This document shows positions 348 to 61,128 of a DNA stretch of 64,000 bases, one piece after another; position 1 is the first letter of the stretch, and every line of letters starts with the position of its first letter. Location of the stretch: NCBI RefSeq assembly GCF_001610835.1, contig NZ_CP011270.1, positions 1,736,001 to 1,800,000 on the forward strand, given 5' to 3'. The notes under the pieces are model-generated. The model was not told the origin of the DNA. It made no database searches and worked only from the letters and a program-made list of their open reading frames with translations. The translations under genes were made by a program, and so were the position numbers. This DNA is from Planctomyces sp. SH-PL14 (GTDB lineage Bacteria; Planctomycetota; Planctomycetia; Planctomycetales; Planctomycetaceae).

Positions 348-454
348 CGGCTCAAGGTGGCACCAAGCCCACCAAGGGTCAGGAAGCCAACCGGCGCGTT
401 CGCTCATTGGTGGTCGACATCACCGTCTCGCTGGACCGGGCAGGCAATGGCTCA

Positions 455-788
455 CCGGGTCCAGGGGCACCCTGGTGGGGAGTGCAGAGGGGCCACGCCC
501 CTTTGCCCGCCGGAGGCCTGTCTCGTCTCGATCTTTCTGAAGGAGCGAGGGGCCAAACGCGGACAACGTGCCGGATGCCCCCTCACTTAATCCGCGGGGA
601 TTGCAAAGCGAGCAGTTTGGATTGAGGGAGTCCTCAACGCCGGTGCCACAAAGCGGTCGCCCGTTGTGTCCTACGGTTCCTCATGGAAGTGCCTCCGGCG
701 GCAAGGGGGCGAGGCCCGCTTGACCCCAGTGGCCGTCGCACGTTGGGTTTGAGCTATCAAAGCCGTGCCGGCAAGAACGCGGCTCGAG
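455..788 (+). repeat. Large structured repeat, copy 1 (plus)
   Basis: First copy of the ~330-bp dispersed element, running from CCGGGTCCAGGGGC to GGCAAGAACGCGGCTCGAG. It lies between the convergent lepA and DUF1501 genes. The 5' hairpin stem is AGGGGC/GCCCCT. The 3' stem is disturbed here (GGGGGCGAGGCCCGC), so this copy is slightly decayed. Bases 399-416 upstream resemble bases 29809-29826 upstream of copy 6. Confidence 0.93.
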
Positions 789-819
789 CCAGCGCCTCCT
801 ACCCTCGCCCGCACGCCAC

Positions 820-4250: not shown

Positions 4251-5507
4251 ATGTCCGACACCCTTTATCTCGTCGACACCTTCTCGCTCCTGTTCCAGGT
4301 GTTCTACGCCATCCGGCAGCCGATGACCGGGACGCGGGGGCAGCCGACGAACGCCGTCTATGGCTTCACCGGGGATATCGAGCACCTCGTCAAGGAGAAG
4401 AAGCCGTCGCACCTGATCTTCGCAATGGAGTCCCCGGAGCCCGGCGAGCGGCTCAACATCTTCGCCGAGTACAAGGCCAATCGGGACGAAATGCCGAACG
4501 ACCTGCGGCCGCAGGTCGGGATGATTCTGGAGTTGCTCGAAGCGTACCGGATCCCGGTGGTCTCGTACCCGGGCTGGGAAGCGGACGACGTCATTGCCAC
4601 GCTCAGCCGCCGGGCGGTGCGGGACGGGCTGGAGGTCCGGATCGTTTCGAACGACAAGGATGCCCGGCAGCTCCTCTGCCCCAAGTGCAAGATCTACAGC
4701 ATCCGCAAGCGGCAGTTCTATCAGGAGCCGGAGCTCCTTGAAGACTGGGGGATTCGCCCCGAGCAGGTGATCGACTTCCAGTCGCTCGTGGGTGACGCGG
4801 TCGACAATGTTCCCGGGGTTCCGGGTGTTGGCCCCAAGACCGCCTCGACGCTCCTGCAGGAGTACGGAACGCTCGAAGGGGTTCTCGACAACGCGGACAG
4901 GGTGAAGGGGAAGAAGGTCTCGGAGAACCTCAAGGCGTTCCGGGACGTGGCCCTTCGCAGCCGGGAGCTGGTCACGCTGCGACAGGACCTGCCGATCGAG
5001 ATCGACTGGGAGCTGGCTCGGCTGCGGGAGCCGGACTATGAGTCGCTGGTTCGGCTGTTCACGGACTATGGGTTCCGCCGTTACGCGACCGATGCGCAGG
5101 TGAAGTACCAGGAGGCCCGGGTTCAGGCTCCGTCGACGGTCGAGCGGACTTGGACGACGATCCGGACGCCCGAGGCCTTCGAGGCGTTTCTGGTGGAGCT
5201 TCGTCAGCAGCCGAAGTTCTGTCTGGATCTGGAGACGTCGAACGTGAATCCGCTGGAGGCCGACATCGTGGGGTGGGCCATCAGTTGGACACCGAATCAC
5301 GGGTACTACATCGCCGTCGATGGTCCCGCGGGCGAGGAGTTCCTGGATCGAGACGGGGTGTTGGCGGCGATGAAGCCGATTCTGGAAGGGGCGGATCTGT
5401 CGGGGGCTGTCGCTCCCGTGTCTCCGGTTGTGAGGAAGGCTCCAGCGCCCGTTGCCAGGCCGGAAAACGGGGACAGTGCAAAGACCCAGGGGCGTCTCTT
5501 CGGCTGA
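4251..5507 (+). CDS. PolA-like 5'-3' exonuclease with a truncated 3'-5' exonuclease domain
   Basis: A 418-residue protein resembling only the N-terminal part of DNA polymerase I. Residues 1-170 form the PIN-like 5'-3' exonuclease/flap domain (YLVDTFSLLFQVFYAI, FAMESPEPGERL, WEADDVIATL, VSNDKDARQLL). Residues 180-260 include the H3TH DNA-binding helices (LVGDAVDNVPGVPGVGPKTA). From about residue 310 a DEDD 3'-5' exonuclease fold begins with motif I (CLDLETSNVNPLEADIVGW). It stops after roughly 70 residues, so motifs II and III and the whole polymerase domain are missing. The tail is Ala/Pro/Val-rich and ends in QGRLFG. The sequence after the stop is a repeat and then selO, with no polymerase coding in any frame, so a frameshift is not the explanation. 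A stand-alone primer-removal/flap nuclease is likely; a full polA would have to lie elsewhere. Confidence 0.85.
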   Translation: MSDTLYLVDTFSLLFQVFYAIRQPMTGTRGQPTNAVYGFTGDIEHLVKEKKPSHLIFAMESPEPGERLNIFAEYKANRDEMPNDLRPQVGMILELLEAYRIPVVSYPGWEADDVIATLSRRAVRDGLEVRIVSNDKDARQLLCPKCKIYSIRKRQFYQEPELLEDWGIRPEQVIDFQSLVGDAVDNVPGVPGVGPKTASTLLQEYGTLEGVLDNADRVKGKKVSENLKAFRDVALRSRELVTLRQDLPIEIDWELARLREPDYESLVRLFTDYGFRRYATDAQVKYQEARVQAPSTVERTWTTIRTPEAFEAFLVELRQQPKFCLDLETSNVNPLEADIVGWAISWTPNHGYYIAVDGPAGEEFLDRDGVLAAMKPILEGADLSGAVAPVSPVVRKAPAPVARPENGDSAKTQGRLFG

Positions 5508-5521
5508 AGCGGGCCAAAGAA

Positions 5522-5846
5522 CCGGGTCCAGGGGCTACCCTGGTGGGGAGTGCAGAGGGGCAACGCCCCTTTGCCCGCCGGAGGCCGTCTCGTCGAGAGA
5601 TGTCTGAAGGAGTGAGTGTCCAAGCGCGGACAAAGTGTCGTATGCCCCCTCACCAACCCGCGGGGATTGCAAAGCCAGCGGTGTGATGTGGGGGAGTCCT
5701 CAACGCTGGTACCACAAAAGGGACATCCGTTGTGTCCCACGGTTCCTCATGGAAGTGCCTCCGGCGGCAAGGGGGTTGCCCCCCCTTGACCCCCAGCGGC
5801 CGTGGCACGTTGGGTTTGAGCAATCGCGCTGTGCCGGCGAGAGCGA
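5522..5846 (+). repeat. Large structured repeat, copy 2 (plus)
   Basis: Nearly full-length copy beginning 14 bp after the exonuclease stop codon and ending 40 bp before selO, so it fills the gap between two co-directional genes. The 5' stem is AGGGGC-AAC-GCCCCT and the 3' stem is AAGGGGG...CCCCCTT with a different loop from most copies. Confidence 0.94.
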
Positions 5847-5885
5847 TCTTTGCGCATTCGCGTGAACTGCCCCTACAATGTCCGC

Positions 5886-7490
5886 ATGACTTCCGACAAC
5901 CTCGACTCACTCCACTTCGACAACCGCTTCACGCGCGACCTCCCCGCCGATCCCGTCACCACCAACCACACACGCCAAGTCCACCGCGCCTGCTTCTCCC
6001 GCGTCCAACCCACCCAGGTCGCCGCCCCCCAACTCGTCGCCTTCTCCCGCGAAATGGCCGAGCGAATCGGCCTCTCCGAACAAGCCGCCCGCTCCCCCGA
6101 ATTCGCCCAGGTCTTCGCCGGAAACCGCCTCCTCCCCGGCATGGACCCGTTCGCCATGTGCTACGGCGGACACCAGTTCGGAAACTGGGCCGGCCAGCTC
6201 GGCGACGGCCGCGCCATCAACCTCGGCGACGTCCTGACCAGCGGCGGAGAACACTGGACCCTCCAGCTCAAAGGAGCCGGAAAAACTCCCTACTCCCGCC
6301 ACGCCGACGGCCTCGCCGTCCTCCGTTCCTCCGTCCGCGAGTTCCTCTGCAGCGAGGCGATGCACCACCTCGGCGTCCCGACGACACGGGCCCTGAGCCT
6401 CGTCCTGACCGGCGAGAAGGTCATGCGGGACATGTTCTACGACGGCAACCCGCAGTGGGAGCCGGGGGCCATCGTCTGCCGCATGTCACCCTCCTTCACC
6501 CGCTTCGGAAACTTCCAGATCTTTGCCGCCCGCAAGGACGTCGAGACGCTGCGGCAACTCGTGGACTTCACGATCCGCACGGACTTTCCGCACCTCGGCG
6601 ATCCCTCGTCCCCCGCCGTCCTCGCCGCCTGGTTCGAGGAAATCTGCCGCACGACGGTCGACATGATCCTGCACTGGATGCGGGTCGGCTTCGTCCATGG
6701 CGTCATGAACACCGACAACATGTCGATCCTCGGCCTGACGATCGACTACGGCCCCTACGGCTGGCTGGAAGACTTCGACCCCGGCTGGACCCCCAACACG
6801 ACGGACGCTCAGGGCCGGCGGTACTGCTTTGGCAATCAGCCGCAGATCGCCCTGTGGAATCTCTCGCAGCTCGGCAACGCCCTCGTCCCGATCTTCGGCG
6901 ATCCCGAACCGCTGAACCGGGGCCTGGAGCTCTACAGCCGGCGGTTCAATGAAGGCTGGCGGACCCTCTCCGCGCAGAAGCTCGGACTCAGGGAGTACGT
7001 CCCCGAGACCGACCTCGACCTGACGAACGATCTCCACGAGCTCCTGCCGCTCGTCGAGACCGACATGACGATCTTCTACCGGCGACTTGCCGACCTGCCG
7101 ATGCTCAGCGACGCCTCCCAAACCGAAGACACGCTCTTCGCCGGCCTCGCGGACGCCTACTACGTCCCCGACCAGCTCACGCCGGAATACCGACAGCGCA
7201 TGACGGCATGGCTGGGCCAGTACCGCGCTCGGCTCCAACAGCAAGGCGAGTTGGACGCCGCCCGGCGCGAGCGGATGAACCGCGTGAACCCGAAGTACGT
7301 CCTCCGGAACTACCTCGCCCAGCTCGCGATCGACAAAGCGGAGCAGGGAGACTTTTCGCTTGTCGAAGAACTGCTGGAAGTCCTCCGCCGTCCCTACGAC
7401 GAGCAGCCGGAGAAGGAACGCTTTGCAGAGAAACGTCCAGACTGGGCTCGATCCCGCGCCGGCTGCTCGATGCTCTCCTGCAGCTCGTGA
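5886..7490 (+). CDS. selO: Protein adenylyltransferase SelO (YdiU/UPF0061)
   Basis: A 534-residue pseudokinase-fold AMPylator. In the family it transfers AMP from ATP to hydroxyl side chains of proteins and is linked to oxidative stress responses. Conserved blocks include CYGGHQFGNWAGQLGDGRA, LQLKGAGKTPYSRHADG, VLRSSVREFLCSEAM, GFVHGVMNTDNMS and DYGPYGWLEDFDP (metal- and nucleotide-binding region). The C-terminus SMLSCSS is the place where some eukaryotic homologues carry selenocysteine; here it is cysteine (TGC), and the terminal TGA is a normal stop. The ATG at 5886 gives the usual SelO N-terminus (LHFDNRFTRDLPAD); the frame is open 12 codons upstream with no better start. It stands alone between repeat copy 2 and small genes on the other strand. 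Confidence 0.95.
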   Translation: MTSDNLDSLHFDNRFTRDLPADPVTTNHTRQVHRACFSRVQPTQVAAPQLVAFSREMAERIGLSEQAARSPEFAQVFAGNRLLPGMDPFAMCYGGHQFGNWAGQLGDGRAINLGDVLTSGGEHWTLQLKGAGKTPYSRHADGLAVLRSSVREFLCSEAMHHLGVPTTRALSLVLTGEKVMRDMFYDGNPQWEPGAIVCRMSPSFTRFGNFQIFAARKDVETLRQLVDFTIRTDFPHLGDPSSPAVLAAWFEEICRTTVDMILHWMRVGFVHGVMNTDNMSILGLTIDYGPYGWLEDFDPGWTPNTTDAQGRRYCFGNQPQIALWNLSQLGNALVPIFGDPEPLNRGLELYSRRFNEGWRTLSAQKLGLREYVPETDLDLTNDLHELLPLVETDMTIFYRRLADLPMLSDASQTEDTLFAGLADAYYVPDQLTPEYRQRMTAWLGQYRARLQQQGELDAARRERMNRVNPKYVLRNYLAQLAIDKAEQGDFSLVEELLEVLRRPYDEQPEKERFAEKRPDWARSRAGCSMLSCSS

Positions 7491-13734: not shown

Positions 13735-13876
13735 TCCGGCCCGCAGCCCTGGCAGGTGAACAAAATCTCATCTGGGGTGGTTCTGTTTGCCTGTTCGCGA
13801 TTGACCGCGCGGATCGGTTGGGCTTTTTTTGCGTTTTGCGCGACCGAATCGAGGCACAGAGCGCAGTGTCGTCCCA

Positions 13877-14191
13877 CCGGGTCCAGGGGCACCCTGGTCA
13901 GGGGGTGCAGGGGGCAGAATGCCTCTTGCCCGCCGGAGGCTGTCTCGTCGAGAGATGTCTGAAGGAGTGAGTGTCCAAGCGCGGACACGGTGCCGTATGC
14001 CCCCTCACCAACCCGCGGGGACTGCAGAGCGAGCGTGGAGTCCTCAACGCCAGTACCACAAAGGGGACATCCGTTGCTGACCACGGTTCCTCGTGGAAGC
14101 GCCTCCGGCGGCAAGGGGTCGCCCCCTTGACCCCGGCTGCCGTCGCACGTTGGGCTTGAGCTAAGAGAGCTCAGCCGGCGAGCACGCGGTT
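13877..14191 (+). repeat. Large structured repeat, copy 3 (plus)
   Basis: A 315-bp copy with a ~12-bp internal deletion around 14030. The 5' stem is GGGGGCA-GAA-TGCCTCT and the 3' stem AAGGGG...CCCCTT. It lies antisense to the flanking genes, between the start of the GT2 gene and the stop of rsgA, and ends 7 bp short of the rsgA stop codon. Confidence 0.93.
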
Positions 14192-14197
14192 TGAAGC

Positions 14198-16957: not shown

Positions 16958-16975
16958 GTGGGAGGGCTGATTGAA

Positions 16976-17304
16976 CCGGGTCCAGGGGGACCCTGGTCAG
17001 GGGGTGCAGGGGGCAGAATGCCCCTTGCCCGCCGGAGGCTGTCTCGTCGAGAGATGTCTGAAGGAGTGAGTGTCCAAGCGCGGACACCGTGCCGTATGCC
17101 TCCTCACCGACCCGCGGGGATTGCAAAGCCAGCGGTGTGGATTGAGGGAGTCCTTATAGCGGGTACCACAAAGGGGACATCCGTTGCTTACCACGGTTCC
17201 TCATGGAAGTGCCTCCGGCGGCAAGGGGTCGCCCCCTTGACCCCAGCGGCCGTGGCACGTTGGGTTTGAGCTATGGACGCCGGGCCGGCAGGAACGCGGT
17301 TCGA
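16976..17304 (+). repeat. Large structured repeat, copy 4 (plus)
   Basis: Full copy between the SET gene and thiC (same direction). The 5' stem is GGGGCA-GAA-TGCCCC and the 3' stem AAGGGG-TCG-CCCCCTT. The terminal block GGAACGCGGTTCGA is intact. Confidence 0.94.
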
Positions 17305-17513
17305 CCGAACCGGAGGATGCGGCCCGCTCCCCGCGTTGCAATCACCCCCCCGACAGATACGATTACGGTTGCTCGTCCCGAGTCGCGATCTGCGGTGACG
17401 AGACCGTGTTTCTGGATTGAGAGGGATCGCCGGAACTTCCAGTCGCGACAGAGGATGTCGCCGGGAGAACCGCTCCGACGGACTGCGGCTTTCCACCGCC
17501 AGGACCACCCAAG

Positions 17514-29833: not shown

Positions 29834-30168
29834 CGGGTCCAGGGGCACCCTGGTCAGGGGATGCAAGGGGGAGAATCCCCCTTGCCCGCCGGAGGCCTGG
29901 CCGTCGAGAGATGTCTGAAGGAGTGAGTGTCCAAGCGCGGACGCCGTGTCGTATGCCCCCCTCACCAACCCGCGGGGATTGCAAAGTGAGCGGTGTGATG
30001 TGAGGGAGTCCTCAACGTTGGGACCACAGAGGGGACATCCGTTGTGTCCCACGGTTCCGCGACGAAAATGCCTCCGGCGGCAAGGGGGCGTGGCCCCCTT
30101 GACCCCAGGCTGCCGTGGCACGTTGGGTTTGAGGTGGCAGAGTCCTACCGGCAAGAACACGGTTCGGG
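29834..30168 (+). repeat. Large structured repeat, copy 6 (plus)
   Basis: Full copy between divergent purU and the CBS gene, so it lies in a promoter-containing gap. The 5' stem is AAGGGGGA-GAA-TCCCCCTT, changed at both pairing positions relative to copies with C-AAC-G. The 3' stem is AAGGGGGC-GT-GGCCCCCTT. Confidence 0.94.
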
Positions 30169-32909: not shown

Positions 32910-33035
32910 AGCAGCCATCGGCGCTGGTACCATTCCGCGAGCTTGGTCAGACGTCTGCAGGGTAAAGCGGATCGCCGGCCGTGGCGACAGATGGGCCGAT
33001 TCTGATGGATGCAGAGTGTTGACGGGGTGAAATCG

Positions 33036-33360
33036 CCTCCTTGCCGGGACGACGCCCATAGCTCAAACCCAACGTGCCACGGCCGCCTGGGGTCAAGGGG
33101 GCCACGCCCCCTTGCCGCCGGAGGCATTTTCGATGGGGAACCGTGGTCAGCAACGGATGTCCCCTTTGTGGTACGAGCTATGAGGACTCCCTCAATCCAC
33201 ACCGCCGGCGATGCAATCCCCGCGGGTTGGTGAGGGGGCATACGGCACCGTGTCCGCGTTTGGACACGAGCTCCTTCAGACATCTTCCGACGAGAGGGCC
33301 TCCGGCGGGCAAGAGGGCGTTGCCCCCTTGCATCCCCCACCAGGGTGCCCCTGGACCCGG
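33036..33360 (-). repeat. Large structured repeat, copy 7 (minus)
   Basis: Full copy in reverse orientation between the divergent hydrolase and dnaE genes. Read on the minus strand, the 5' stem is AAGGGGGC-AAC-GCCCTCTT and the 3' stem AAGGGGGC-GT-GGCCCCCTT. It ends about 230 bp before the dnaE start. Confidence 0.94.
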
Positions 33361-33590
33361 TTTATGAGCCCGAAGCTACGCCACGTCGCCCGGCCACCAT
33401 CCAGCGAACGCACCCATGTCGACGCCGTCCATCTACCCTAACCCGCGACATCCACGGCCATTGCGCCGCTCCCCGTCAAAACCGCTCGGAGCCGGGCCGC
33501 AGCGCCGATCAGATCTGGTACAATCCCGGTTTCACTCCGGCGCGAATCAGTCGCGCTGTTCCCCGCCATCCCCTCCGCTCGCACGGATTC

Positions 33591-36500
33591 ATGAGCGATC
33601 TCGCGACCCCCGCAGCCGAGGCTGCCCCGGTGCGGCCCTTCGCCCACCTTCACTGCCACACCCACTACTCCCTCCTCGACGGGGCCAGCAAAATCCCCGA
33701 CCTCGTCAAGAAGGTCAAAGAGCTGGGGATGGACTCGTGCGCCATCACGGACCACGGGAACCTGTACGGCGCACTCGAGTTCTACACCAAGTGCAAGGAC
33801 GGCGGCGTCAACCCGATCCTGGGGTACGAGGCCTACATCGCCCCCGGCCACCGCACGGACCGCAGCGCGTCGCGGATGAAGGACGCCACGTTCCACCTCA
33901 CGCTCCTCGCCATGAACGCGACGGGCTTCAAGAACCTCTCGCGGATGGCCTCCAAGGCCTACCTCGAAGGGTTCTACTACAAGCCCCGCATCGACAAGGA
34001 ACTGCTCCAGCAATACCACGAAGGGGTCATCTGCCTCTCGGGCTGCGCCTCGAGCGAACTCTCGCGACTCCTCCTGGGTGGCGAGAAGGAAAAGGCCGAA
34101 TCGCTCGTGAAGTGGTACGTCGACCTCTTCGGCGACCGCTTCTACATGGAGATCCAGGACGGCGGCGTCGAGATCCAGCAGTCCTGTGCTGAAGCGACGA
34201 TCGAACTCGCCGATCGCATGGGGCTGCCGCTCGTCGCCACGAACGACGCGCACTACCTCTGCCAGACCGACGCGTCGATGCACGACGTGCTCTTGTGTGT
34301 GAACACAAAAGCCCGCGTCACCGACGAAAACCGGATGAAGATCAACACCGATCAGCTCTTCATCCGTTCTCCCGAGCAGATGTACGCCGCCTTCCCGAAC
34401 CGGGCCGAGGCGGTCGCCCGCTCGCAGGAGATCGCGAACCGCTGCAACATCGAGCTCGACCTCAAGACCCGGCACTACCCGGTCTTCACCCCGCCGCCGC
34501 CGCTGACCGACAAGGACTATCTCCGGCAGGTCGCCTACGACGGCATGAAGTGGCGGTACGGAGAGAACCCCGAGCAGAAGTTCGTGGACCGGCTCGAGTT
34601 CGAGCTCGGCGTCATCAACAAGATGGGGTACGCCAGCTACTTCCTCATCGTGTGGGACTTCGCCCGGTTCGCCCGCTCGCAGGGGATCCCCTGCACGGCC
34701 CGCGGAAGCGCCTGCGGGGCGATCGTCGCCTACCTGCTGGGGATCAGCGACGTCTGCCCCATCGAGTACGACCTGCTGTTCGAACGGTTCCTCGATCCGA
34801 GCCGGACCGAGGCGCCCGATATCGATATGGACTTCTGCCGGGACCGGCGGGAAATGGTCCTGAACTACGTCAAGGAGAAGTACGGCGTCGACAACGTGGC
34901 CCAGATCGGGACGTTCGGCACGCTGAAGGCGAAGGCGGCGATTCGCGACGTCGCCCGCGCGCTCGGGGTCGACCTCAAGCGGGCGGACGAAGTCGCCAAG
35001 ATGATCCCCGAAACCCTCAACATCAAGATCACGGAGGCGATCGAGGAGAATCCGGAACTCAAGCAGCAGTACCAGGCCGATCCGCAGACGAAGGAGCTCG
35101 TCGACTTCGCGATCGCCATGGAAGGTCTCGCCAAGAGCGCCGGCACCCACGCGGCCGGCGTGGTCATCGCCGACCAGCCGCTCATCGAGTATGTCCCGCT
35201 CCAGAAACTCTCGGGCAAAGAGGACATCCTCACGCAGTGGACGGAAGTCGAGAAGGCGGGCCTTCTCAAGATGGATTTTCTTGGGCTGCGAAACCTCTCG
35301 ATCCTCGACAAAGCCGTCCAGAACGTAAAGAAGCACCGCGGCGTCGACATCGTCCCGAAGGACCTGCCGCTCGACGACAAGCCGACCTTCGCCCTCCTCC
35401 AGCGCGGGGAAACGAAGGGGATCTTCCAGCTCGAGTCCGGCGGGATGCGGGACCTGCTGACGAAGATGAAGCCCGACAAGTTCGCGGACATCATCGCCAC
35501 GTCGGCCCTCTATCGCCCCGGCCCCCTGGAAGGGGGGATGGTCATGACCTACGTGAACGTCAAGCACGGCCGCGAGCCGGTGCCGACCGTTCACCCGATC
35601 GTCGACGGCGTCCTGGACGAGACCTACGGGGTCATGGTCTACCAGGAACAGGTCATGCGGATCCTGAACCGCCTGGGAGGGGTCGAGCTCGCCAAGTCGT
35701 ACCAGTGCATTAAGGCGATCTCGAAGAAGAAGTACGACATCATCGCCAAGTACAAGGAGCAGTTCCTGGAAGGCGCCGAGAAGAACGGCATGCCCCGCCA
35801 GCAGGCGGACGACATCTTCTCGCTGATCGAGAAGTTCGCCGGCTACGGCTTCAACAAGTCGCACTCCACGGCTTATGGGGCGATCGCTTACCAGACCGCC
35901 TATCTCAAGGCGCACTACCCGCAGGAGTTCATGGCCGCGCTCCTCTCGTGCGGCATGGAGTCGAGCGAGCGGATCGCGGAACACACCGACGACTGCCGCC
36001 GGATGCAGATCGAGATCGTCCCCCCGGACGTCAACCTCAGCGGCGTCGAGTTCACGGTCGTCGTCGAGGAAGTCCCAATCGCACCCGAAGGGGACGGGAA
36101 GGCTAAGAAGAAGAAAGCCGCCGATCCGAACGAGCCGGTCCCGACGAAGACGGTCCGCCGGGTCGCCTTCGGCATGGGCGCCATCCGCGGCGTTGGCGAA
36201 GGGGCCGTCAGGGCGATCATGGAGGAACGGGAGCGGAGCGGGGTGTTCAAAGACATCTTCGATCTCTGCGAACGAATCGACGGCAAGGTCCTGAACAAGG
36301 GGGCGCTGGAACTGCTCGTGAAGGCCGGGGCCCTCGATTCGTTCGGCCCCAACCGCGCCCAGCACATCATGGCGGTCGACCGCGCCATGCAGGCCGCATC
36401 GTCGAAGCAGCGGGACAAAGCCCGCGGCCAGAAGAACCTGTTCGAATTCGGCGGTGGCGGCGGCGGATCCAAGACTGCCGAAGCGGCCCCGCCCGACCTC

Positions 36501-37334
36501 TCGCTCCCGCCTGCGGACGACTGGAACTACAGCCAGAAGCTCGCCTTCGAGAAGGAAGTCATCGGCTTCTACCTGACCTCGCATCCGCTCAACGAGTTCT
36601 CGGAGCAGCTCCAGGCGTTCACGCAGAACCAGGTCAAGGATCTGCGGGACATCGGGGACGGCAAGGACGTCCTGATCGGCGGCATGGTCTCCTCGATCAA
36701 GAAGGCGGCCACCAAGAAGCCGAGCCGCAACGGCCACAGCAAGTACATCAACTTCGACCTGGAAGACCCCACGGGGGTCGTCCGCTGCATCCAGTGGCCG
36801 GACGATTTTGCGAGGGAAGGGGACAAGGTCGTCCCGGAGGCGATCCTCCTCGTCCGGGGCCGGGTCGACCTCCGCAGCCGCGAGCCGAACATCATCGTCA
36901 ACAAGGTGATGACGCTCGAGCAGGCGGAGCGGGAGTTCACGAAGCAGATCCTGATCAAGCTCCGCCGCGGCTACCACACCGAAGACGACATGCGCCGCAT
37001 CCGCGATACGCTCGCCGGCCACCCGGGCAAAACGCCGGTGGTCCTCGTCATCGAGACCTGGGAAGACAAGCCAGTCAAACCGCTCTCCGTCCAGAACGGA
37101 AATGGCAACGGCAACGGCTCGCACACCGCGGAAGCGAACGGGACGAACGGCCAGACCGCCCACACCGACGTGATCCGCAGCTACCTCCGCTGCTATCTGA
37201 CCACCTCGGCCACGGTCGCCGCCAGCCAGCCGCTCAAAGACAGCCTGATCAACCTCCTCGGCCCGAAGGGTTTTCTCTTTCAGGCCAGCCAGCAGAACGG
37301 CAAAAGCTCGGAGTCGAGCGGCAACGGCCATTGA
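33591..37334 (+). CDS. dnaE: DNA polymerase III subunit alpha
   Basis: The 1247-residue replicative polymerase catalytic subunit. The PHP domain opens with [14 protein letters not shown] (residues 20-33). The polymerase active site contains [12 protein letters not shown] (~409-420, two catalytic Asp). Then come [18 protein letters not shown], the helix-hairpin-helix region ([24 protein letters not shown]) and the OB fold ([31 protein letters not shown]). A likely internal sliding-clamp motif, QKNLFEF, is at ~947-953. The C-terminus carries an Asn/Gly-rich linker near residues 1166-1190 and an acidic, Ser-rich end. An 82-codon upstream extension of the frame runs out of repeat copy 7 and is not polymerase-like, so the ATG at 33591 is used. 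It is monocistronic. Confidence 0.96.
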
Positions 37335-39726: not shown

Positions 39727-40902
39727 ATGCCCAAACCTCTCACGACAAAACAGCAAGCCTTCCTCGAAGCCTACCGGACCTATGGCATCGTCCGGATCGC
39801 CGCCGCCAAGTCCGGCGTCTCCCGCGAACTCCACTACAACGCCCTCCGGGTCTCCGAAACCTACCGCCAGGCCCTCGCCGCCATCGCGAAGGAGCACGCG
39901 CTCCAGCTCGAAGAACAGGCCCGGACGATCGCCCGGAACCAGGGAGTCCCGGAACCGGTCTTCTACGGCCGGAAGCTCGTCGGCTTCAAACGCCGGTTCT
40001 CCGACAAGCTCCTGATCCTCCTCCTCGAAGCGAACCACCCCGAGAAGTTCCGCCGCCCCAAAGCCCCCCGAAAACGCCGCCCACCTGACAATGGGACGAA
40101 ATTCCGGCCGCCCCGAACAGCCCGAACCCGTCCCGGGCCGATAGAGCGAAAACCCTCCCTCGAAGCGCTCCTCCTCGAAGAAGAAGCCCGGACCATTGCG
40201 ATCCAGGGCCTCCCCGAACCGGTCTACTACGGCCGCCAGATCGTCGGCGTCCGGCGCCGATACTCCGACCGCCTCCTGATCTGTCTCCTCGAAGCCAACC
40301 ATCCCCAGAAGTTCCGCTGGCGTCGCCGCGCCGCCCGGAGGAAGAGGAAACCTGACACTGGGGAGATTTTTGGGACGCCACACTTTCGGCTCGTCCCGCA
40401 ACAGCGCTCCCAATCCGACTTCGTCTGCCAACGCCGCCGACGGACCCTCTGCTCACGGTTCGGAACCGCAGGCTGCGCCCAGGTGAGGGGGGCATCCGGC
40501 ACCGAGCCGCGCCTGGACACACCCACCTTCAGACAACTCTCGACGGTCGGCCTCCGGCGGGCAAGGGGGGCCGCCCCCCTTGCATCCCCCGCCAGGGTTC
40601 CCCCTGGACCCGGGAAGGTAGCCCTCTCGCTCCGCGAGAGGAGCGCGCGACCGGCGCTCTCCCTCCCAATCCGAGCATCACCTCCCCCGAATTCGCGCAC
40701 GAATCGCCCCGCAATTGCCCCAAACCTGTCCGTCGATTACAGCTCACCCATCCGGGACACCCACCGTCCCCCACCACCGCACGGCCTGCGCCGGCCCCAA
40801 TCTGCGGAGTTCTCAAAGTGGCATCCCCCGCAACGGGCGAGTTCCTCGGAACACTCATCCTCATCCTCCTCGGAGACGGCGTCGTCGCCGATGTCCTCCT
40901 GA
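39727..40902 (+). CDS. Terminase-small-subunit-like HTH protein with internal duplication and repeat-derived tail
   Basis: An open frame of 391 residues. Residues 1-60 (LTTKQQAFLEAYRTYGIVRIAAAKSGVSRELHYNAL) are a helix-turn-helix resembling phage terminase small subunits. A block of ~50 residues then occurs twice: GVPEPVFYGRKLVGFKRRFSDKLLILLLEANHPEKFRR (~73-110) and GLPEPVYYGRQIVGVRRRYSDRLLICLLEANHPQKFRW (~160-197). Each is followed by PDNGTKF or PDTGEIF. From about residue 225 the frame enters low-complexity sequence, then translates repeat copy 8 (40480-40614) backwards. It finally overlaps the aquaporin start by 85 bp. The tail is therefore probably not original; the functional part likely ends near 40380. 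It is probably a domesticated phage-type DNA-binding protein. Confidence 0.6.
   Translation: MPKPLTTKQQAFLEAYRTYGIVRIAAAKSGVSRELHYNALRVSETYRQALAAIAKEHALQLEEQARTIARNQGVPEPVFYGRKLVGFKRRFSDKLLILLLEANHPEKFRRPKAPRKRRPPDNGTKFRPPRTARTRPGPIERKPSLEALLLEEEARTIAIQGLPEPVYYGRQIVGVRRRYSDRLLICLLEANHPQKFRWRRRAARRKRKPDTGEIFGTPHFRLVPQQRSQSDFVCQRRRRTLCSRFGTAGCAQVRGASGTEPRLDTPTFRQLSTVGLRRARGAAPLASPARVPPGPGKVALSLRERSARPALSLPIRASPPPNSRTNRPAIAPNLSVDYSSPIRDTHRPPPPHGLRRPQSAEFSKWHPPQRASSSEHSSSSSSETASSPMSS
40480..40614 (-). repeat. Large structured repeat, copy 8 (minus), half element
   Basis: Only the 5' half of the element is recognisable (CCGGGTCCAGGGGG through GGTGAGGGGG, read on the minus strand). It keeps the 5' stem with a distinct sequence, AAGGGGGGC-GGCCCCCCTT. 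The other half is lost or decayed beyond recognition. It is the only copy that lies inside an open frame. Confidence 0.85.
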
Positions 40903-50942: not shown

Positions 50943-51076
50943 GAACGGGCTCGTGAGGCTTGGACCGGCGACCCCGCGCAAGGTCCGTCCCTGCACCGGG
51001 TTGCCGGTCACCCGAACGAGTCAGCAGCTTCCGCGCCATCTGTCAAACGCCAGCCCGATTTCCGCCCTCCACCAAA

Positions 51077-51408
51077 CCGGGTCCAGGGGCACCCTGGTGG
51101 GGGATGCAAGGGGGCAACGCCCCCTTGCCCGCCGGAGGCCGTCTCGTCGAGAGATATCGGAAGGAGATCGTGTCCAAGCGCGGACACCGTGCCGTATGCC
51201 CCCTCACCAACACGTGGGGATTGCAAGGCGAGCGGTGCGATATGAGGAGTCCTCAACGCTGGTACCCCAAAGGGACATCCGTTGTGTCCCATAGTTCCTC
51301 ATGGAAGAGGCCTCCGGCGGCAAGGGGGCGAGACCCCCTTGACCCCGGCTGCCGTAGCACGTTGGGTTTGCGGGAGCAGAGCCGTGCCGGCAAGGACGCG
51401 GTTCGAGC
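51077..51408 (+). repeat. Large structured repeat, copy 9 (plus)
   Basis: Full copy between the divergent AI-2E permease and MarR genes. The 5' stem is AAGGGGGC-AAC-GCCCCCTT and the 3' stem AAGGGGGC-GAG-ACCCCCTT. It carries an intact terminal block ACGCGGTTCGAG. Confidence 0.94.
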
Positions 51409-57133: not shown

Positions 57134-57220
57134 CGCAACACTCCCGTAAAACATCGAAGAACAAACGGACCGATCATTGGAACAGACCCCGGCGGGTCCC
57201 GAAAGTCACTGTCCCGCTGG

Positions 57221-57552
57221 TTCGAACTGCGTCCTTGCCGGCACAGTTATGCCACGTCAAACCCATCGTGCGACGGCAGCCGGGGGTCAAGGGGGGCAAC
57301 CCCCTTGCCGCCGGAGGCCCTTCAATGAGGAACCGTTGTAAACAACGGACGTCCCCTTTGTGGGAACAGCGTTGAGCACTCCCTCTACCCACACCGCTTG
57401 CTTTCCAATCCCTGCGGGTTGGTGAGGGGGCATACGACACGTTGCCCGCGTTTGAGCACGTACTCCTTCAGATATCTCTCGACGACCAGGCCTCCGGCGG
57501 GCAAAGGGGCGTTGCCCCTCTGCACTCCCCACCAGGGTGCCCCTGGACCCGG
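57221..57552 (-). repeat. Large structured repeat, copy 10 (minus)
   Basis: Full copy in reverse orientation between the divergent aldo/keto reductase and porin genes. Read on its own strand, the 5' stem is AGGGGC-AAC-GCCCCT and the 3' stem AAGGGGG-TTGC-CCCCCTT. Confidence 0.94.
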
Positions 57553-57772
57553 TGGGACAGTGACGTCGGGTTACGCGTCGGCCCGTCCCCGATTACCGTC
57601 AAACTTTGCGGATTATGACGGTGGCGGAACCCGCCCTACCGAACAATGCCCGCCTCCCACTCCCTTCGAAACCGTCTCCTCTCCTCCATGTTCCGATGAA
57701 GAGTTTGTCACGCGCCCACACGGACGAACTGTTCAATCACGCTCCCCACCCGGGGGATCACGGAGGATCGAC

Positions 57773-59434: not shown

Positions 59435-59440
59435 GCCTTA

Positions 59441-59726
59441 CCGGGTCCAGGGGCACCCTGGTCAGGGGATGCAAGGGGGAGAATCCCCCTTGCCCGCCGG
59501 AGGCCCTCTCGTCGGGAGATGTCTGAAGGAGTGAGTGTCCAAGCGCGGTCACCGTGCCGTATGCCCCGTCACCAACCCGCGGGGATTCCAAAGCGGACGT
59601 CCGTTGTTTACCAAGGTTCCTCACAGGAGTGCCTCCGGCGGCAAGGGGGCGTGGCCCCCTTGACCCCAGCGGCCGTCGCACGATGGGTTTGACGTGGCAT
59701 CGCCGTGCCGGCGAGGACACGGTTTT
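59441..59726 (+). repeat. Large structured repeat, copy 11 (plus), with central deletion
   Basis: A 286-bp copy. It lacks about 45-50 bp of the centre (between AAAGCG and GACGTCCG near 59590). Both hairpins and both ends are kept: the 5' stem is AAGGGGGA-GAA-TCCCCCTT and the 3' stem AAGGGGGC-GT-GGCCCCCTT. It begins 6 bp after the porin stop and its far end reaches the DUF1501 stop codon. Confidence 0.93.
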
Positions 59727-61128
59727 ACGCCAGGATTTCCTTCACGACTGAGCCGTGAACGTCGGTCAGCCGGAAGTCCCGCCCCAAATGACTCCACGTC
59801 AGCCGCGTGTGGTCGAGACCAAGCTGGTGCAACATCGTCGCATGCAGGTCATGGATATGGACCTTGCCCGCAACGACCCGATACCCCATCTCGTCCGTCT
59901 CGCCATACGTCAGCCCCCCCTTCACCCCCCCGCCCGCCATCCAGGCACAAAAGCTCTCCGGCTGATGCTCCCGGCCATGCTTTTCGATCGGCGCCGTGCC
60001 GCTCAGGTCCTGGCTCCACGGAGTCCGCCCGAACTCCCCGGACCACACCACAAGCGTCTCATCCAGGAGCCCGCGCTGCTTCAGGTCCGTGAGCAGCGCC
60101 GCCACCGGCTGATCGGTCTGGCGACACAGGTTCGGCAGAGCCCCGCGGATGTCGCCGTGATGGTCCCAGCCCCCCATCGTGACCTGAACAAAGCGGACCC
60201 CCGCTTCGCTCAGCTTCCGGGCCAGCAGGCAAGCCCGGCCGTGACGCTCCGTCTCCTTAGTCCCGATGCCGTAAAGGGACAGCGTGGCAGCCGACTCCCG
60301 TGAGAGATCGACAAGCGCCGGCGTCGTGGTCTGCATCCGGAACGCGAGTTCCATCGACTCGATCATCCCCTCCATCGCGGCGTCCTGCTCCAACCGGCCG
60401 ACAAGACGGCGGTTCATCTTCTGCATCAGAGCGATCCGCTCCCGCTGAACGTCGGCATTCGGCGAAAGGTCCCTCAGGTTCTCGATCGGGGAAGTCTTGT
60501 CGTCCAGCGGAGCGACCAGGCGTGTTCCCTGGTGCGCCGCCGGCAGCCAAGCCGAACCGTAGTAGCGGACGTCGGCGTGCGGATTGATGGTGATGAAGCT
60601 CGGCAGGTTCCGGTTCTCGGTCCCCAGGCCGTAGCTGATCCAGGAGCCCATCGAGGGCCGCACATCGTTGAGGGCCCCGGTGTGGAGCTGAAGCTCCGCC
60701 GGCATGTGCTGCGGATTGTCCGCGTTCATCCCCCGCAGCAGACAGATGTCGTCCGCCACACTCGCCAGGTGCGGCATGAGGTCCGAGATCAGCATCCCCG
60801 ACTCGCCGCGGGGCCGGATCGGGACGGAGGTCCCGAGCGCCAGGAACTTGTCGGTCCCGACCTGCAGCACGTTCTTGGCCAGCGGCGACTCGATCGTCTG
60901 CCCGTGCTTCCGCTGGATGAACTCCTTGGAGTCAAAGAGATCCATCTGCGACGGCCCCCCCTGAATGAACAGGAAGATGACCCGCTTGGCCCGGACGATC
61001 TGGTGGGCCGCCCGCGTGGCGAGCGGACTTTCGGCGGCCTGGGCCAAGTCGCGAAGCGCGAGAGCCCCGAACCCACATGCGGAACCGGCGAGCCATTGGC
61101 GACGGGAGAGAGTCAGCGGAGAGCGCAT
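59725..61128 (-). CDS. DUF1501 family protein (FCD operon)
   Basis: A 467-residue DUF1501 protein. A Tat-like leader (LSRRQWLAGSACGFGALALRDL) precedes the family blocks VIFLFIQGGPSQMDLFDSKE, SDLMPHLASVADDICLLRGM, QPESFCAWMAGGGVKGGLTYGETDEMGY, TLVVWSGEFGRTPWSQ and [30 protein letters not shown]. It closely resembles the 44956-46341 gene. It lies 40 bp downstream of a PSCyt1 gene, third in an operon behind an FCD regulator. The ATG at 61128 places the leader. The terminal TAA lies at the edge of repeat copy 11. Confidence 0.92.
   Translation of the reverse strand: MRSPLTLSRRQWLAGSACGFGALALRDLAQAAESPLATRAAHQIVRAKRVIFLFIQGGPSQMDLFDSKEFIQRKHGQTIESPLAKNVLQVGTDKFLALGTSVPIRPRGESGMLISDLMPHLASVADDICLLRGMNADNPQHMPAELQLHTGALNDVRPSMGSWISYGLGTENRNLPSFITINPHADVRYYGSAWLPAAHQGTRLVAPLDDKTSPIENLRDLSPNADVQRERIALMQKMNRRLVGRLEQDAAMEGMIESMELAFRMQTTTPALVDLSRESAATLSLYGIGTKETERHGRACLLARKLSEAGVRFVQVTMGGWDHHGDIRGALPNLCRQTDQPVAALLTDLKQRGLLDETLVVWSGEFGRTPWSQDLSGTAPIEKHGREHQPESFCAWMAGGGVKGGLTYGETDEMGYRVVAGKVHIHDLHATMLHQLGLDHTRLTWSHLGRDFRLTDVHGSVVKEILA

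Follow-up and report, generated by a model that had tools for sequence, protein, structure and literature searches.

Strand-asymmetric base composition flanking an inverted pair of G-rich hairpin units in a high-copy intergenic repeat of Planctomyces sp. SH-PL14

The DNA analyzed here (the window) is a stretch of 64,000 nucleotides, corresponding to positions 1736001–1800000 of the 8,442,773-base single-contig genome of Planctomyces sp. SH-PL14 (NZ_CP011270.1). Between a 5'–3' exonuclease gene and a SelO gene, at positions 5521–5854, it contains one copy of a composite repeat in which two G-rich hairpin units stand in inverted orientation, each beside a short and nearly invariant arm. Ten full copies and one left-only copy lie in the window, with both orientations represented. 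Copies were located with an nhmmer profile, and genome-wide statements refer to a sample of 2.864 Mb of the 8.44-Mb chromosome, from which 339 full copies were aligned; the three sample sets used (864 kb, 1.664 Mb and 2.864 Mb) are nested, so results obtained from them are not independent. The sample yielded 468 matches, 351 of them full copies (182 in the + and 169 in the – orientation), from which we extrapolate approximately 1,400 matches and 1,000 full copies for the whole chromosome. None of the 351 full copies overlapped by more than 60 bp with our gene calls, which were made in-house; the repeat is thus intergenic, and its high-copy units alternate in orientation, the left and right arms being inverted in the 339 aligned copies. 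Density was lowest at chromosome positions 0–0.4 Mb (43 matches, compared with 58–80 in the other six 400-kb samples). Pairwise identity among copies had a mean of 0.829 and did not exceed 0.927 for the best neighbour (n = 196); the copies are old and about equidistant, with no sign of a recent burst. Using blastn, with at most 12 candidates scored per genome and no profile search made, we found no copy in 58 other relatives (36 of the same family). Among 396 other genomes of the class, a set that overlaps with these 58 and in which at most two candidates per genome were scored, blastn returned only one 29-base and one 23-base match, in two genomes.

A sequence-only reading of this locus had described inverted arms differing by one base and lying about 190 bp apart, a G-rich hairpin beside each arm and a CCAGGG-type hairpin at the left tip, and this layout was borne out. 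Each arm is exact in nearly all of the 339 aligned copies, far beyond chance, and both are exact in 307 (Table 1) and in all ten full copies of the window, where the copy at 40482–40613 has the left arm only. The distance holds when counted from start to start (186 bases in the copy at 5521–5854, with 171 bases between the arms; the median spacer over the 339 full copies is 161 bases). The hairpins lie on the outer side of both arms, and the tip pattern CCAGG...CCCTGG was matched in 328 of the 339 copies. Mean divergence was lowest in the arms (0.004 and 0.005) among the parts compared, the others being the tip (0.047), the hairpin columns 23–49 (0.164), the interior (0.122) and the tail (0.169).

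The flanks of the repeat carry a strand-asymmetric compositional footprint, which is a real and strong genome-wide pattern. In the orientation of the element, the left 300-bp flank had a GC skew of +0.175 and the right one a skew of –0.152, and the left value exceeded the right in 98% of 121 copies. Every sampled region showed the skew on both flanks, for copies in either orientation. The four gene contexts gave similar values, regardless of the direction of the neighbouring genes, and the skew was near 0 in 205 intergenic controls with no element within 1.5 kb. When 898 intergenic gaps were scanned without bias, the difference in third-position skew (left minus right) was 0.573 for gaps with full copies (n = 199), 0.426 for partial copies (n = 45), 0.045 for weak matches (n = 7) and –0.026 (SD 0.215) for the 647 element-free gaps. 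Divergence of a copy from the consensus was unrelated to skew on the left (P = 0.30) and weakly related on the right (rho = –0.17, P = 0.016).

Outside each unit, third codon positions are rich in G and T on the unit's strand and correspondingly poor in C and A. For genes running toward the element, the third-position fractions of C and G at 100–200 bases on the left were 0.235 and 0.562, compared with 0.467 and 0.403 for the same gene class at 1200–1600 bases, and the shift on the right is the mirror image of that on the left. Because first and second codon positions shift little beyond 200 bases, the footprint looks like a mutational bias under purifying selection. For the copy at 5521–5854, third-position skews in successive 240-nt blocks were 0.22, 0.45, 0.15 and 0.00 moving away through the left flank (4520–5520), and –0.82, –0.68, –0.23, –0.35 and –0.18 from the start of the SelO gene on the right. 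Expressed in the sense of the unit's strand and corrected for background, the third-position skew over all copies was 0.437 at 20–60 bases, 0.211 at 500–600 bases and 0.014 at 1000–1200 bases. A straight line reaching zero at 1042 bases (weighted residual sum of squares 0.111) described this decay better than an exponential (0.687); the fit of a Gaussian (0.120) was about equal to that of the line. The corresponding SelO loci of other genomes lacked the skew in all nine relatives that had a match among the 39 searched (34–65% identity, eight of them only 34–36%), with values of –0.14 to +0.41 and –0.30 to +0.31 in the first two 240-base blocks.

Naturally truncated copies were used to locate the determinants of the footprint. 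Class means were computed over isolated copies, namely 343 of 351 full (340 with whole flanks), 34 of 42 left-only (33 with whole flanks), 13 of 20 right-only and 17 of 17 no-tail copies. Over 500 bp, the left and right skews were +0.159 and –0.129 for full copies (n = 340), +0.160 and –0.024 ± 0.019 for left-only copies (n = 33), +0.162 and –0.123 for no-tail copies (n = 17), and +0.069 and –0.192 for right-only copies (n = 13). Eight of the 13 right-only copies begin at model positions 238–246 beside an insertion sequence, seen directly in six and recognized by identical flanking letters in two, and the other five begin at positions 126–181. In two copies ending at model positions 240–241, with the right hairpin incomplete, the right skew was –0.08 and –0.01. 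The right determinant may therefore be placed roughly at model positions 238–262, i.e. at the right hairpin, these edges being profile estimates. These results show that the effect of each unit is largely one-sided and that the two halves act mainly independently of each other.

Table 1. Parts of the repeat copy under study, its flanks and the other copies in the window (window coordinates)
Feature	Position	Strand	Basis or value
Repeat copy under study, full length	5521..5854	+	nhmmer match to model 2–323, 329.8 bits
Left-tip hairpin CCAGGGGCTACCCTGG	5528..5543	+	sequence; tip hairpin in 328/339 copies
Left unit: GGGGAG (proposed third strand)–TGCA–GAGGGG–loop–CCCCTT	5545..5571	+	covariation, 339 copies
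Left arm TTGCCCGCCGGAGGC, almost invariant	5571..5585	+	exact in 321/339 copies
Interior, moderately conserved; right part dispensable for left footprint	5586..5756	+	left-only copies ending at model 134–211
Right arm GCCTCCGGCGGCAA, one base shorter than the left arm and its reverse complement	5757..5770	-	exact in 324/339 copies
Right unit: G-rich hairpin with CCCCC (G run on – strand), mirror of left unit	5769..5794	-	copies ending at model 244–278 keep right footprint
Right tail, dispensable for right footprint	5795..5854	+	17 no-tail copies, right skew –0.123
Left flank, 5'–3' exonuclease gene	4520..5520	+	GC skew +0.198 in first 300 bp
Right flank, SelO gene	5855..6900	-	GC skew –0.427 in first 300 bp
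Full copy	454..789	+	nhmmer
Full copy	13876..14195	+	nhmmer
Full copy	16975..17305	+	nhmmer
Full copy, right hairpin with long loop	24697..25038	+	nhmmer and sequence
Full copy	29834..30167	+	nhmmer
Full copy	33028..33361	-	nhmmer
Left-only copy, right half missing	40482..40613	-	nhmmer
Full copy	51076..51408	+	nhmmer
Full copy	57220..57553	-	nhmmer
Shorter copy (288 bases), both ends present	59440..59727	+	nhmmer

Elsewhere in the window, positions 33345–37334 hold overlapping open frames on opposite strands, of 1329 amino acids (+) and 1297 amino acids (–).

The left unit is a fold-back hairpin with mirror-symmetric G runs. Among the 339 copies, its column pairs 34–48, 39–43 and 38–44 were paired in fractions of 0.982, 0.964 and 0.907, compared with 0.784, 0.643 and 0.726 expected, and this covariation supports folding of the unit as a single strand. 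The two G runs flanking TGCA also match each other. Columns 27 and 34 were identical in 0.979 of copies (0.498 expected) and columns 28 and 33 in 0.973 (0.511 expected), compared with 0.13–0.53 for slid pairs and at most 0.602 in 1000 partner shuffles. Matched runs of 4 + 4, 5 + 5 and 6 + 6 (columns 27–28) accounted for 155, 137 and 40 of the 339 copies, and the C/T side of the hairpin tracked the length of the G run. Mirror symmetry of two purine runs, one of them paired to pyrimidines, is what an intrastrand purine-motif triplex would demand, and the covariation of the left unit fits the symmetry predicted for such a structure. Shared ancestry of three short haplotypes offers an alternative account of the mirror covariation, which is weakened because intermediates are rare and because column 27 is less linked to columns 23 and 38–43, only 4–16 bases away. 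With loops of 1–7 bases allowed, the exact five-triad class I motif occurred 213 times inside elements and three times outside them in the sample. Six-triad motifs within the 468 matches numbered 30 when exact and 93 with at most one mismatch, the sixth triad often being G-G-T; the published triplex-motif search rule takes stems of at least six and allows one mismatch only at seven or more.

The hairpin loop of many copies occurs in short and long (TGTGTTGTTTTTCT-like) versions. In the right unit, the long-loop cassette is present in either orientation (33 and 8 copies), and in the left unit in one only (37 copies); given the two orientations on the right, it is as if the hairpin had extruded and flipped. 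Some copies carry an insert of about 70 bases followed by a second left tip.

The same sequence-only reading had further proposed that the arms can close the element into a single long stem, in a layout resembling a cruciform or transposition substrate or a large non-coding RNA. Here, the inverted layout, the hairpins and the interpretation as a DNA structure were retained, and the long closing stem found no support. No both-side (compensatory) change was observed over 14 pairs in 339 copies; such changes are scarcely possible because the arms hardly vary. RNAalifold applied to 119 copies paired about eight arm bases and gave no well-supported closed structure, with a consensus energy (+ strand) of –52 kcal/mol compared with –151 to –189 kcal/mol for 20 single copies and a covariation term near zero. 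Moreover, left-only copies keep the left footprint, so the closing stem is not needed for it. The arms thus look like a conserved sequence present twice in inverted orientation and not like a stem maintained for pairing. A large non-coding RNA likewise found no support, as covariation was confined to the local hairpins and Rfam returned two matches, both far below the gathering score, and no family for the repeat.

The footprint is best read, in our view with an even chance of being right, as the trace of DNA synthesis that halts at the unit while the unit's strand serves as template, so that a single-stranded stretch remains beyond it. The element is an inverted pair of directional units, each of which goes with a G/T-rich bias on its own strand in the DNA lying 5' of it. 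According to this plausible mechanism, the unit's strand, when exposed as a single-stranded template, would fold back into the hairpin and the purine-motif triplex, a fold perhaps held by a protein reading the invariant CCGCCGGAGGC beside the unit, and the folded unit would stop DNA polymerase. On the leading template, synthesis would restart further on and the gap would extend to the restart, and on the lagging template the previous Okazaki fragment would mark its far edge. In either case, a gap of 0 to about 1 kb would be left on the unit's strand, 5' of the unit, and repeated deamination of C or error-prone filling in such gaps would raise G over C and T over A on that strand. Gaps of uniform length predict the linear decay that was observed. 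More generally, a bias that is largely one-sided for each unit, follows the unit's strand, depends little on transcription, appears on both flanks in each sampled region and ends near 1 kb is what uniform gaps at a polymerase stop would leave, and it is from this agreement that we infer the stop, the gap and the deamination or error-prone filling.

Several observations weigh against this reading. The triplex, the stall and the gap are all deduced from base composition, and none was observed. Left-only copies keep some third-position skew on the right (–0.119, n = 26, compared with –0.261 in full copies; P = 0.003), so that 'reduced by half or more' is the safe wording for their loss, and the third-position left skew of right-only copies (0.126, four copies) was not significantly below that of full copies (P = 0.077). 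The left skew was independent of stem breaks (rho = 0.03, P = 0.54), of mirror breaks (P = 0.74) and of G-run class (P = 0.80) in the left unit, and the right skew, used as a control, showed a weak correlation with the mirror breaks of the left unit (rho = 0.13, P = 0.016, uncorrected). Because column pair 33–49 is mostly G-T, one triad would be non-canonical. As 68 other intergenic hairpins with stems of at least 10 had no flank skew, a hairpin alone is insufficient, and the near-invariant arms suggest a sequence-reading protein and not a purely structural stop. The flank on the lagging template was stronger in regions B, H and C (0.380 compared with 0.276), and the two values were 0.275 and 0.289 in the other five regions. 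Finally, GlnRS orthologues, examined at 10 of 80 loci, are themselves C-rich at the start, with negative skew (–0.21 to –0.58, compared with –0.76 here), which makes GlnRS a weak control.

Fork stalling at the element was considered and rejected, since it predicts a one-sided footprint in each replichore, which was not seen with an origin guessed from the DnaA match. The best DnaA match lies at chromosome position 4865285, a weaker DnaA-like match lies at position 58, and the regional GC skew is weak.

The main rival to a gap at a folded unit is a recombination or nicking site, where a protein reads the unit and begins one-sided processing; we regard it as possible but rather doubtful. Resection or nick translation could run outward, 5' to 3', from a nick in the opposite strand; alternatively, a helicase–nuclease could undergo a Chi-like switch, after which the unit's strand survives as 3' single-stranded DNA. 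Such a process yields the strand and side observed and an effect that is one-sided for each unit, and the invariant arm fits a protein site. The genome also encodes a PDDEXK_1 nuclease domain in open reading frames (ORFs) of 921 and 807 amino acids, and three ORFs of 686–1114 amino acids gave weak matches to a RecB profile. However, exponential resection would not produce a linear decay with a 1-kb edge, and a nuclease reading duplex DNA has no need of the covariation in the hairpin. No RecB was found above the cut-off (best score 89 compared with 696 bits; AddA and AdnAB models were not searched). Away from elements, neither CTGGTGG (left 0.013, right 0.015, n = 313) nor the arm sequence (n = 12) was accompanied by a difference between flanks.

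It is improbable, in our judgment, that the footprint is a nicking by-product of a REP/REPIN-type non-autonomous element that a Y1 (RAYT) transposase mobilizes through its hairpins in single-stranded form. The repeat does resemble such elements in being intergenic, high-copy and composed of paired inverted hairpins without target duplication, and the genome contains two Y1_Tnp genes, one of them flanked by hairpins with the GGGGCAACGCCCC core. Nevertheless, no units bracket either Y1 gene, hairpins like those beside the Y1 gene showed no skew (10 matches, representing about five places on both strands), and a nick on the unit's strand would by this reasoning expose the opposite strand. The copies are also old and about equidistant. 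REP/REPIN-type spread would survive separately as an account of how the copies once multiplied.

A transcriptional origin, with the units as terminators and inward transcription biasing the flanks, is very unlikely. The hairpins are GC-rich, and full copies are more frequent in convergent gaps (100 of 271) than in divergent (80 of 346) or tandem gaps (169 of 987). Within 200 bases, genes running toward the element were more skewed than those running away (0.41–0.46 compared with 0.19–0.29), but the two were about equal further out (0.210 and 0.212 at 500–600 bases), and divergent gaps show the skew as well. Slightly less credible still is a hotspot of double-strand breaks with symmetric 5' resection, for example through cruciform cleavage of the whole element. 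It gives the correct sign on both sides of full copies and would accommodate the third-position right skew that left-only copies retain (–0.119), but it requires left-only copies to be equal on both sides; as they lose half or more of the right skew, a break with equal two-sided resection is unlikely. Least probable of all is a preference of the elements for inserting at sites whose two sides were G-rich and C-rich beforehand. Such a preference would produce this pattern with nothing happening at the element itself, but the 647 element-free gaps and the nine SelO loci show no trace of it, and left-only copies would then have to occupy left-only skews.

Transposition of the repeat was not demonstrated. 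Shared end k-mers, as expected of a target duplication, were no more common than in shuffled pairs (k = 4–10, 311 copies), and no transposase was seen bracketed by units among the split and partial copies inspected, which came from one part of the sample. Transposase-like genes beside units belong to insertion sequences (three types seen) that lie inside the unit hairpin, which speaks against the units as transposase ends. Three DDE insertion sequences of this kind, which we take to be IS4-like from reading their proteins without a family search, lie at 326572–328080 of sample region A and at 204040–205540 and 88990–90430 of region D, two of the three in a palindromic tail-hairpin-tail form of the repeat. 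One Y1 transposase gene, at chromosome positions 6246572–6246910, is flanked by CCTGGGGC..GCCCCAGG hairpins, a type without flank skew that shares its core with the hairpin of the left unit; the second Y1 gene is likewise not bracketed by units. We also rejected truncation in the style of a retroelement; left-only copies are more common than right-only copies, yet in the 1.664-Mb sample at least 5 of 23 contain an insertion or have their right part displaced (no reverse transcriptase search was made). Linkage between columns fell to the shuffled level beyond about 40 bp, which agrees equally with gene conversion among copies and with old copies drifting independently. Where several copies are truncated, a second repeat is found (GGAAGTCCCGCCAGGGACGGCCGAAAATAGCCCACC...-like; sample positions A 380599, A 395033, B 43225 and A 203214), one exact 24-base version of which did not turn up away from elements.

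The DNA polymerase I gene of this genome is split. The window gene at 4251–5507 encodes the 5'–3' exonuclease and the start of the 3'–5' exonuclease region, and the polymerase part is encoded by an ORF of its own, at a distance of about 1 Mb (at about 724 kb; positions 1093–2640 of locus L252), with no element in its 4.1-kb locus. In 39 other relatives, 38 had a match, 36 of them in frames of 893–1164 amino acids; the exceptions were a 412-amino acid frame in relative G020 and frames of 369 and 729 amino acids on two contigs in G051. As a speculation, the split polymerase I might slow gap filling.

The nearest known kind of element, ahead of REP and BIME sequences, is the intrastrand triplex motif of E. 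coli (ITx; TM_ECO, formerly PIT; Holder et al. 2015, PMC4666352). As described in the main text of that article, these motifs are intergenic, occur on both strands, fold back on one strand in the purine motif and in some cases form inverted pairs, and their authors link them to local instability and to possible replication stalling with repriming. The repeat differs in sequence and in class, since TM_ECO is class II (Y-R-RH) and the repeat unit, with its RH-R-Y order on one strand and short loops, would be class I. It also differs in number, with 23 TM_ECO in MG1655 compared with the approximately 1,400 matches extrapolated here, and in its flank skew, a word that does not occur in that main text. 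REP, BIME and REPIN elements, as outlined in PMC3733652, share the short GC-rich intergenic hairpins, the high copy number and the inverted pairs, and the entry of insertion sequences into REPs is already on record (PMC8450116). The tag of REP/RAYT systems is given as GTAG or CGTC at one hairpin end (PMC3733652). In contrast, the hairpin foot in the consensus of our 339 copies, read by eye, has neither tag, no RAYT gene is bracketed by units, and the repeat is a composite of 330 bases whose arms are near-invariant and whose flanks carry a footprint. A miniature inverted-repeat transposable element of a DDE transposon is set apart by its target site duplication, of which the repeat shows none. 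For eukaryotic replication, a review (PMC12708500) relates a proposal that structures on either template give rise to single-stranded gaps specific to one strand, by repriming on the leading side and between fragments on the lagging side, whereas here an evolutionary footprint is seen at natural copies in a bacterium. In titles and abstract openings of the literature on local GC skew with repeats, on strand asymmetry of triplexes and on planctomycete repeats, no such footprint was found described. On that basis, the footprint is new to the literature searched, and the repeat itself is of a known general kind.

The roughly 1,000 copies serve as a natural experiment with natural deletions for controls, in which sequence alone tells on which side and strand the footprint lies and how far it reaches. 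Should the proposed explanation be true, the 1-kb edge would measure how long the gaps are in vivo, and replication, not expression, would largely determine which synonymous codons are used close to the repeats. We advance more tentatively, and consider unlikely as a whole, the further possibility that these are genetically programmed gap sites, i.e. approximately 1,000 paired one-way stops that would each expose up to 1 kb on either side, with the arm as the site of a dedicated protein. Such sites might be kept by the cell, perhaps for loading recombination proteins or disentangling replication, at the price of mutation biased by strand across perhaps a quarter of the genome.
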